Part shown: positions 1-13,896 of the stretch, in pieces
How positions within the stretch are numbered: the stretch's first letter is position 1
How the letters are laid out: each line of letters begins with the position of its first letter
IMG/VR virus record: IMGVR_UViG_3300022074_000392
Coordinates: 1-23,258 of that record
Source: a virus
Strand: one strand, 5' to 3'
Length of the DNA stretch: 23,258 bases
Notes under the pieces: model-generated
What the model saw: only the letters and a program-made list of their open reading frames with translations
What the model was told of the DNA's origin: nothing
The model's database searches: none
Program-made: the position numbers and the translations under genes

Positions 1-373
1 GTTCGAGGTCAGGCCGGGCGTAAAACTCCGGGCTGCGCCGTTCCGATAACTTATTTATGCCACACGCCGCAGAAAAAAACACGCGCCGCTGATCAATGGC
101 GACGCGGGCGAGGATGTCATACACACGCTGATCGGGTCTGGTCTTCTTATCGCGGCCCGATCCAAGCTGGTGGTGGTAGGTCAGCGCGCCGCGATCTCGC
201 TGCTTCCGCAGACGGGCGCTTTTCACTTGCACCCGCATGAAGTCGTTGTCATGCCACGCGACCACATCGATCCCGTCCATCGGCGCATGCCCTGCCTTCC
301 ACCCAAGATCAAGGATCGCGGCGAGCGCTATGTACTCGCCTTGCAGACCCGTCGTTGTGGCGGACGGTGGCAC
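1..373 (-). CDS. PD-(D/E)XK-type nuclease, partial (runs off left edge)
   Basis: The frame is open from a GTG at 373 to the window edge, giving at least 124 residues, so the C-terminus is missing. Visible nuclease motif set: a Glu in LQGEYIALAAI (about residues 10-20), an Asp in APMDGIDVVA (about 31-40), then VQVKSA (about 50-55), matching the E...D...(E/Q)xK layout of the PDDEXK_5-like family. Members of that family are often annotated as group I intron-associated endonucleases; that is family knowledge, not proof here. GTG starts one base after the TAA of the preceding gene, consistent with coupling; the Shine-Dalgarno is weak. The absence of an early ATG makes the gene easy to miss. Alternatives: a Holliday-junction or repair nuclease, or a restriction-like enzyme. 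A group I intron in the capsid gene of the same window makes a homing role worth testing. Confidence 0.75.
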   Translation of the reverse strand, partial: MPPSATTTGLQGEYIALAAILDLGWKAGHAPMDGIDVVAWHDNDFMRVQVKSARLRKQRDRGALTYHHQLGSGRDKKTRPDQRVYDILARVAIDQRRVFFSAACGINKLSERRSPEFYARPDLE

Positions 374-11643: not shown

Positions 11644-12288
11644 TTAACTCTCCACTGCTGCGTTTTGACGGGCGTAAATACTGCTGATTTGCAGCGAACC
11701 CGTGCCGTAATGCGCGCGCTGCTCATCGACCTTGATCTGCTCAAGGGCGAGGTTGAAGCGTTGCAGATACTGCGACGCACGCTGTTCATCAAGCAGGTAA
11801 GCATACGCCTCTGCGAGTGATCCGTATAGGTAGGCATCCGGCGAGCGGGTCAAGATATTATTTGTGGCGTTGCTGTCAGACAGCGCCGTGATAGACCCGA
11901 TATAGATAATCTCGGCGGTGTAGCTGTCGTCCGGCACAGGGCGCATCTTCATCTCGTCGCCGATAATGCTGAAGCCCTTTGGCTTGCCGACACCGCCGGA
12001 TGAGAAGTTGCTGTCGAGCGCGACCGGGCTGTAATAGGTCAGGACCGTCAGCGGTGTCGTGTTCAGCTTGACCTCGCGCACCTCGCGTAAGTCTGTTGGC
12101 AGCGCAATGTATTCATCGCCGCTGGTCAGCGTCGCCGTGGCGCGCTTCTCCTGTGACCGTGTCTCCAGTTCGCGAGACATCGTCGCCTCGGCAAGTTGGA
12201 TAAAGTCGGGGATGACGCTGGTCAAATCGTCACGCGCGAGGAAGTTGGCTATTGCCGTCTTCAATTCGGTGTAGGTCGAAATCGCCAT
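11644..12288 (-). CDS. Head-tail adaptor (connector) protein
   Basis: Protein of 214 residues starting MAISTYTELKTAIANFLARD and a helix DLTSVIPDFIQLAEATMSRE, a standard opening of podophage adaptor proteins (P22 gp4 / SU10 adaptor-like). A strand-rich centre follows (EYIALPTDLREVREVKLN; FSIIGDEMKMRPVPDDSY; AEIIYIGSITAL) and then two helices (SPDAYLYGSLAEAYAYLLDE; ASQYLQRFNLALEQIKVDEQ). Adaptors of this type form a ring under the portal and receive the nozzle. The ATG overlaps the previous TAA (TAATG). The order capsid, small protein, adaptor, tail proteins is the expected one. Confidence 0.8.
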   Translation of the reverse strand: MAISTYTELKTAIANFLARDDLTSVIPDFIQLAEATMSRELETRSQEKRATATLTSGDEYIALPTDLREVREVKLNTTPLTVLTYYSPVALDSNFSSGGVGKPKGFSIIGDEMKMRPVPDDSYTAEIIYIGSITALSDSNATNNILTRSPDAYLYGSLAEAYAYLLDEQRASQYLQRFNLALEQIKVDEQRAHYGTGSLQISSIYARQNAAVES

Positions 12289-12611
12289 TATAAATGTCCG
12301 CCGCCCGTTCTGAATGCCCGGTTTTCACTGTCGTTCAGCCAAGCCTTCCACGCCTTTGGATTTTCGCGCATCGGGCCAAACTTCTCCAGCAAGTGATTGT
12401 ACACCACGTTTGGGATTTCCGCCACATGCTGCATGTGACGCTGCGTGTTGCCGATCATTGAGCCGGGCTGGTAGTCACCCGACATCTGCTTGTTAAGTTT
12501 TAGCAGGCCGCCAAATTCCTGCCGCTGCTCAATAACAGAAGACCCGTCGCTGTTCTGCTGCAAGGTGACTTCCTTGCGGGTGCGCGGGTCGGTGTATAGA
12601 TATCTTTTCAT
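12288..12611 (-). CDS. Conserved structural-region protein (107 aa)
   Basis: Protein of 107 residues beginning with KRYLYTDPRTRKEVTLQQNS, then helical segments around EQRQEFGGLLKLNKQMSG, HMQHVAEIPNVVYNHLLEKF and NPKAWKAWLNDSENRAFRTG. This short family repeatedly sits directly after the major capsid gene in podophages; its function is not established to my knowledge. A head-completion or capsid-decorating role fits the position but is inference. A GC-rich hairpin lies between it and the capsid gene and may set its expression level. The end overlaps the adaptor start by one base. Confidence 0.75.
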   Translation of the reverse strand: MKRYLYTDPRTRKEVTLQQNSDGSSVIEQRQEFGGLLKLNKQMSGDYQPGSMIGNTQRHMQHVAEIPNVVYNHLLEKFGPMRENPKAWKAWLNDSENRAFRTGGGHL

Positions 12612-12628
12612 TCTGTCCTCATAGAGGA

Positions 12629-12650
12629 GAGGGCGGCCAAAGCCGCCCTC
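12629..12650 (-). terminator. GC-rich hairpin after the capsid gene (attenuator-like)
   Basis: A perfect 9-bp stem GAGGGCGGC/GCCGCCCTC with a 4-base loop, lying 9 bases beyond the capsid stop and 18 bases before the next start. On the transcribed strand it is followed by pyrimidines (TCCTCTAT) rather than a clean run of T, so it looks like a partial terminator or an RNA-stabilising hairpin that keeps capsid mRNA abundant while limiting read-through. Confidence 0.55.
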
Positions 12651-12658
12651 CCGCTAGA

Positions 12659-13896
12659 TTAGGAGCCGTTCAGATCAAGGATCATGCTATGCGCTTTGGG
12701 CGCAGTTGGCTTGAGCGCCCACTCGCACAGGATGTGCGTGTCGGTTGCGTCGCCAGTCTTGGCCAAATCTTCCTCAAGGAAGTTACGACCGTTCAGCGTG
12801 CAGAGCGACACAAAGTCTGGGTCGATCAGGAAGATGCGGTCGTTACCAAGCTGGCGAGACGGAGTTGCCTCAACAGTACCGAAGTCGCCGAGGAACACCG
12901 AAGTCGAACCGACATAGGTGACTTCCTTGGCAGCGGTCATGTTCACGTCATTGCTGACGAGGTTGCCGGAAGCAGCCAAATCCGAGAAATTGGCTTTATT
13001 CCCAGCCGACATGCACATCATCCGAGGGTTGCCGCCGTCGGTCCATGCGTCCTGCTGCGCGTCCTCAATGAGGGCAAGCGTCAGTGCGCGGTCAGTACCG
13101 CCGGTTACTGCGTCAGTACCGTCGCCAGTAGCGAAAGCGCCGTCGCCAGCACCAACAGAGCCGTTGGTGATCCAGCATGACAGAGACGCCGACTTGCGTG
13201 GCTCAGAAGAAGAGCGAGCAACGTCTGTGTCGCCAATCATCTTTTCGATGTCGCGACGCAACTCAAGGGCCTTACAATTTGTTACCGCCGACCTGTTTAT
13301 GATCGACTTCTACGGCTTGTAGTCAGGTTATACCGTAGTTCAGACTATATCTTCACTTTCGTGTTGGGCGCTCGTGGGCAGATTATTCTTTCGTCACCGC
13401 CTAGTCGTTGAACCTTCACCAGCCCTCAGCTTTCGCTTCCATCTGGCGCTTGGCTGCTGATTACCCGCCTCCGGGCTTCCCAGCAATTCACCCAATTTTT
13501 TTCCTGAACCAGTCAGACAGCAATCTGATTTAGAACAGGGGTGCCTTCGGAGAAAGAGTTAAGCACCTTCTGGTAGTTGTGTTCGCGCTCGCGACCTGCC
13601 GTATCTACAGCATCGAGGGTCCCACTCGTAGCGAAAACCTTTTTGCTGATCTGGTGATAATTTCCAACACGGCTGGTCGGCGTGGCCGCCGCAGTCGCTG
13701 TGTCTGCACCTTCGTTGTGATAGTTCGTGGCGCTGGCTGAAGCCAATTCCTGAACCTGCCACTCGGTGAAGATACCGTTGGAAGTTTCCTTCTTAACGTT
13801 TGAAAATATTGGCGTTTCAGCAGGGTCGATGCGATAAATTACATCGGCAAGCTGTTCACGTTCGCCGATTGCTGCGGCGGTTGCGAAGGTTGTCAT
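12659..13896 (-). CDS. Major capsid protein, split by a group I intron: join of 12659-13274 and 13562-13896
   Basis: The gene is in two exons (minus strand). Exon 1 is 13896-13562 (335 nt), exon 2 is 13274-12659 (616 nt); together 951 nt = 316 residues plus stop, with Leu112 split CT|T. The joined protein reads through NYQKVLKALELRRDIEK in one frame, as in SU10-type (DUF5309-like) HK97-fold capsid proteins. Exon 1 carries the usual start (IGEREQLADVIYRIDPAETP and TEWQVQELASASATNYHNEG); exon 2 carries QDAWTDGGNPRMMCMSAGNK and a beta-rich C-terminus (SVFLGDFGTVEATPSRQLGN). Unspliced RNA would give only a 127-residue product ending at 13513. SD (AGGAAAAGG) precedes ATG 13896. The cut falls in a conserved segment, as expected for a homing element. 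Confidence 0.92.
13275..13561 (-). ncRNA. Group I self-splicing intron in the capsid gene (287 nt, no internal ORF)
   Basis: The 5' exon end GGTGCT (13567-13562) pairs fully with the guide GGCACC (13545-13540), giving P1 with the diagnostic U-G at the splice site. P2: TCAGA/TCTGA (13528-13513). P3: TTGGGTG (13495-13489) with CGCCCAA (13370-13364). P4: TTGCTG (13486-13481) with CAGCAG (13459-13454). P5: CCCG/CGGG. Core strands are canonical: AATTGCTGGGAA (P), AATCAGCAGCCAAGC (Q), GTTCAACGACTA (R), AAGATATAGTC (S). P7: GACTA (13406-13402) with TAGTC (13347-13343). P8: CAC-GAAA-GTG (13363-13354). P9: CTACGG/CCGTAG (13338-13310). Extra sequence between P7 and P3' suggests P7.1, as in subgroup IA (T4 td-like). 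The intron ends in G (13275). It is too small for a homing endonuclease gene. Confidence 0.95.

Follow-up and report, generated by a model that had tools for sequence, protein, structure and literature searches.

A PD-(D/E)XK endonuclease with a predicted homing-enzyme fold beside the lysozyme gene of SU10-capsid-type phages, and its probable independence of their capsid introns

Described systems and the locus

The described proteins that best compare with the phage nuclease considered here include: (i) I-Ssp6803I, the homing endonuclease of the Synechocystis tRNA-fMet intron (PDB 2ost), a PD-(D/E)XK class enzyme of 150 amino acids that presumably carries a QxK variant of the motif, (ii) the archaeal Hjc Holliday junction resolvases, which have a PD-(D/E)XK core and a motif that we take to be ExK, and (iii) F-CphI of cyanophage S-PM2, a free-standing nuclease found in one genome with a nuclease-less intron of psbA. 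F-CphI has an Endo VII motif, its gene adjoins the one that bears the intron, and the donor is protected by that intron (PMC6083498). Nuclease gene and intron are likewise adjacent in the known cases of such collaborative homing (PMC6083498; PMC10448857). Free-standing homing genes usually sit between conserved genes (PMC6083498).

The locus under study belongs to an IMG/VR virus record (IMGVR_UViG_3300022074_000392), which was analysed in full (23,258 bases) and is termed the window. The features of the window that matter here are as follows:

2..373, minus strand: PD-(D/E)XK endonuclease gene, with a GTG start at 373; codons 1-124 of about 141 are present, the rest lying past the contig end
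375..833, minus strand: PHROG 32327 gene of the same operon, upstream of the nuclease; hydrophobic C-terminus by eye, function unassigned in PHROG
12659..13274, minus strand: 3' exon of the major capsid gene; spliced frame continuous
13275..13561, minus strand: group I intron of 287 nt without an endonuclease ORF, at site C (capsid codon 112); boundaries set against intronless alleles
13562..13896, minus strand: 5' exon of the SU10-type major capsid gene; spliced frame continuous

The window nuclease and I-Ssp6803I are both of the PD-(D/E)XK class, differ little in length (about 141 versus 150 amino acids) and share a fold from end to end (TM 0.67), with a sequence identity of only about 14%; the likeness is one of predicted fold. 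Unlike I-Ssp6803I, which is encoded inside a group I intron, the window-type nuclease is a free-standing phage gene, placed between the PHROG 32327 gene and a lysozyme gene and found irrespective of capsid introns. The window resembles S-PM2 in that a free-standing nuclease and a nuclease-less intron occur in one genome. By contrast to F-CphI, the window nuclease and the intron-bearing gene are 13 kb apart, and most carriers of the nuclease are without a protecting intron. Hjc has the catalytic core in common with the window-type nuclease but is the weaker fold match, and the nuclease has QxK where Hjc presumably has ExK.

The nuclease gene and its fold

From position 373 to 2, the minus strand runs without a stop through 124 codons and encodes the motifs LQGEY, DGIDVV and VQVKSA. 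A nuclease gene starting with GTG at the left edge, hidden by the lack of an early ATG, had been proposed in the earlier note, and this gene call is confirmed: the earliest in-frame ATG is codon 32, the GTG follows the TAA of the 375..833 gene after a single base, and the relatives start with ATG, GTG or TTG at the aligned position, in support of the GTG start. The openness of the frame by itself is weak evidence for a gene, with 21 of 2000 base shuffles leaving it likewise open (61% GC). The gene is instead judged real because relatives of 73-100% identity are encoded on 29 IMG/VR contigs, the protein matches PHROG 5018, the starts align, internal stops are absent from all 42 diverse members, and the median Ka/Ks is 0.21 (218 pairs). 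These values point to a gene under purifying selection. More distant relatives, down to about 37% identity, retain the same ends and motifs. The full-length protein of the relatives is 141 amino acids, such that the window copy is missing the final 17 residues. As the window is a complete record, sequence beyond the contig end was taken from the relatives, which supply the C-terminus that the earlier note sought past the edge; it reads METRNG, and its coding sequence runs into a phage lysozyme gene, covering both the ribosome site and the start codon.

The family is recognised through its diverged members and its fold. Against Pfam PDDEXK_5 (PF11645; cut-off 26.1 bits), the window copy scores 15 bits, while the diverged orthologues of G046, G039 and G028 score 32.9, 30.8 and 27.3 bits, with most of the domain covered. 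Residues 6-107 of the window protein match PHROG 5018 (E 2e-10), a family without an assigned function that is matched by all eight diverse members examined. The NCBIfam search of the nuclease returned nothing, and neither single members nor the profiles A1, A2 and A4 found a real match in the PDB by sequence; the fold search alone was informative. For an AlphaFold (AF2) model of the nuclease (pLDDT 92.1, pTM 0.87), the top four PDB matches are to I-Ssp6803I, one for each of its four chains (E 3.7e-7 to 1.2e-4, TM 0.66-0.67). Chains of the SPARDA complex and Hjc resolvases score lower, the best Hjc matches being at E 2.5e-3 or worse with TM 0.38-0.48. Seven residues (G12, E13, D33, D36, R47, Q49 and K51) are invariant in an alignment of 44 sequences, and E13, D36, Q49 and K51 are the putative catalytic residues judging from invariance and fold (D33 is invariant too). 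The model, the PDB search and the invariant residues together provide the core fold and the E/D and QxK residues of the PD-(D/E)XK superfamily. Thus, the protein is predicted to be a free-standing, I-Ssp6803I-type PD-(D/E)XK nuclease in which QxK is invariant, and its modelled fold lies closer to that of the homing enzyme than to those of the resolvases. The family guess of the earlier note (the group I intron-associated endonuclease type) was a good one, and the resolvase match that would have spoken against it is clearly weaker than I-Ssp6803I. PHROG 5018, with its function unassigned, thereby gains a structural identity, the I-Ssp6803I fold.

The lysozyme junction and the probable role of the nuclease

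In the relatives, the nuclease gene is followed directly by a phage lysozyme gene (PF00959), then by a gene for a small holin-like protein (by eye) and more small genes. The coding end of the nuclease, from METRNG to the stop, includes GGAGACG and the lysozyme ATG. In the nuclease-less phage G011, GGAGACGCAAATGG is kept ahead of the lysozyme. A survey led by the lysozyme finds the nuclease in 69 of 79 junctions, as an optional gene between conserved neighbours. The ten junctions without it include three that are clean and empty (G011, L359 and L360), three of other arrangement and four with an unrelated small ORF. The unrelated ORF that fills the nuclease slot upstream of the lysozyme in L416, L424, L425 and L432 has about 75-115 codons and the motif SYHPETxEPCEVFLTGRGxKASDSPM. 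The nuclease is dispensable, since some junctions are empty or different (three cleanly without the gene and seven that differ at the slot). Nuclease distances correlate with those of capsid, terminase and portal (Mantel r 0.65, 0.69 and 0.74; p 0.001), and the mean amino acid distance is 0.44 for the nuclease versus 0.12-0.18 for the structural genes, a change about three times faster. The nuclease thus roughly tracks the phage backbone. No relative of the nuclease was found in a one-genome-per-species collection of bacteria and archaea. Of the named phages, C72C1 carries a clear homologue, and Vibrio phage phiKT1028 gives a match that is weak and only partial. The PDDEXK_5/PHROG 5018 nuclease appears to be a near-core gene in a clade of SU10-capsid-type phages of about 35 kb from environmental metagenomes.

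The preferred explanation, to which a probability of about 0.62 is given, is that the nuclease descends from a homing enzyme and is now a stably inherited late protein that is translated with the lysozyme and cuts DNA to the benefit of the phage. Its gene is flanked by the PHROG 32327 gene and the lysozyme in what would be the late operon, and the gene order suggests that the enzyme would be made late, together with the lysozyme. Cleavage of DNA would use a metal ion at the D36/Q49/K51 site. The work done would most likely be to cut or resolve DNA, either the phage's own or a competitor's, at about the time of packaging and lysis. The ancestry would be of homing type, with any dependence on, or specific service to, an intron now gone. 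Counting against this explanation, the gene is dispensable, no sequence test parts a DNA-processing role from site-specific cutting, and the nuclease evolves faster than the structural genes; the PDDEXK_14, PDDEXK_15 and YqaJ nucleases of these phages could also do the same work. If so, a nuclease of homing type can settle as a late gene that is inherited stably and is coupled to lysozyme.

The same junction may also be viewed as the target of a selfish, self-homing endonuclease that cuts the empty 32327/lysozyme junction, is copied in and has come near to fixation. The homing-endonuclease fold, the faster evolution than that of its neighbours and the existence of clean empty junctions are all in keeping with self-homing, as is the slot itself, since free-standing homing genes are usually found between conserved genes (PMC6083498) and this one has a conserved gene on either side. 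The distances, however, follow the backbone, no decayed copy occurs among the 42 members and the Ka/Ks is low, while an empty junction with the GGAGACG ribosome site is equally explained by deletion; self-homing is, on this balance, rather unlikely.

A Holliday-junction or branched-DNA resolvase that acts before packaging is distinctly improbable. In favour of this role, phages conserve resolvases, in some cases as late genes (e.g., T4 gp49), and the PD-(D/E)XK fold has Hjc among its weaker structural matches; in addition, the C72C1 homologue is downstream of genes for a Sak annealing protein and an SSB. I-Ssp6803I is, however, the better structural match, the motif is QxK and not the ExK that we assume for Hjc, and the PHROG resolvase family 6591 is matched by only one of eight members (E 0.11). 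Two other PDDEXK genes are, moreover, present in the early region of these phages. In L009, this pair (PDDEXK_15 and PDDEXK_14) is adjacent at 11846-12701, beside an SSB-like gene. PDDEXK_14 is undetected by tblastn in G011 and G075, two long records without the lysozyme-side nuclease.

Capsid introns and their relation to the nuclease

The capsid gene of the window, assigned to its family by the Pfam SU10_MCP match of a relative, has one group I intron by RF00028 (61.7 bits). Its boundaries are drawn from comparison of alleles and not from RNA, and the spliced frame is 99% identical to the intronless capsid of L036. That this sole intron of the window is without an endonuclease of its own, as noted earlier, is borne out, with no endonuclease ORF found within 13561..13275; the separation from the nuclease, estimated earlier at some 13 kb, measures about 12.9 kb. 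Capsid introns of relatives are at codon 23 (site A, 210 nt), codon 87 (site B, 266 nt) and codon 112 (site C); a 251 nt intron is at about codon 105 (site D) in phage C72C1, and C-type intron cores are seen near codon 93 too. Group I introns lacking an ORF thus occupy four or more sites in these capsid genes. The site-A introns are 92-99.5% identical and their 3' exons 69-93%. The window intron and that of G075 are identical at 285 of 287 positions, with exons that match at 264 of 335 and 529 of 616. Because the introns are near-identical across strongly diverged exons, the site-A and site-C introns must have moved recently between phages. A screen of 37 records for gene families that go with intron carriage turned up nothing beyond antisense ORF artefacts and some small, unrelated families.

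The partnership of nuclease and intron proposed in the earlier note was compared across 31 records that span both loci, with presence and absence scored by sequence similarity and most records being fragments; the sample is non-random, as some records were found via the nuclease, and the subset found via the capsid is the cleaner part. The nuclease is present in 12 of 13 records with a capsid intron (the window, G001, W01, G020, G042, G046, G052, G064, G067, G071, G080 and G086) and in 17 of 18 without (Fisher p = 1.0). The exceptions are G075, with the intron and no nuclease, and G011, with neither. The co-occurrence expected of partners is thus not seen, and what stands of the earlier proposal is the family call. 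Since 17 carriers of the nuclease have an uninterrupted capsid gene, unprotected from self-cutting, an enzyme that cuts at the capsid is hard to reconcile with the data. The nuclease of G001 differs from that of the window at one of 124 residues (I35V), and yet site C is uninterrupted in G001 and the intron is at site B. The site-A intron occurs alongside nucleases that are only about 42-55% identical. For G075, which has the window's intron, no such nuclease was found in its 28-kb record; this absence is best taken as supporting and not decisive, as a trans-acting donor enzyme could leave such recipients. The unprotected carriers are the stronger argument. The nuclease is probably not the partner of the capsid intron because its distribution is independent of the intron and it is widely kept beside the lysozyme. 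A plausible but unsupported partner is thereby struck from the question of what moves the ORF-less capsid introns.

A looser, many-to-one form of collaborative homing, in which the PDDEXK_5 nuclease or its PDDEXK_14/PDDEXK_15 siblings, unlinked and in trans, drive the multi-site ORF-less capsid introns, is very unlikely. Least likely of all is strict collaborative homing, in which the nuclease cuts the intronless capsid gene at the intron site and spreads the intron in trans: the I-Ssp6803I fold, the clear mobility of site-A and site-C introns that encode no nuclease, the few other visible candidates (HNH, GIY-YIG and LAGLIDADG were all absent from a Pfam scan of the proteins predicted in two genomes with introns) and the possibility that, in a trans scheme, a recipient like G075 acquires the intron alone are outweighed by the unprotected carriers, the open site C of G001, the shared site-A intron beside divergent nucleases and the unlinked loci without a co-occurrence signal.

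ORF-less capsid introns are observed in the window (12659-13896) and in L031, L142, L139, L318, L320, L327, L341, L346 and L460. The capsid genes of L454 and L458 apparently have two introns each, one at site A and another further downstream. In C72C1 (L031, OQ984150), the annotation divides the capsid gene at 1507-2708 into two 'major head protein' CDS, accompanied by small reverse ORFs, a split that is apparently due to an unrecognised group I intron.
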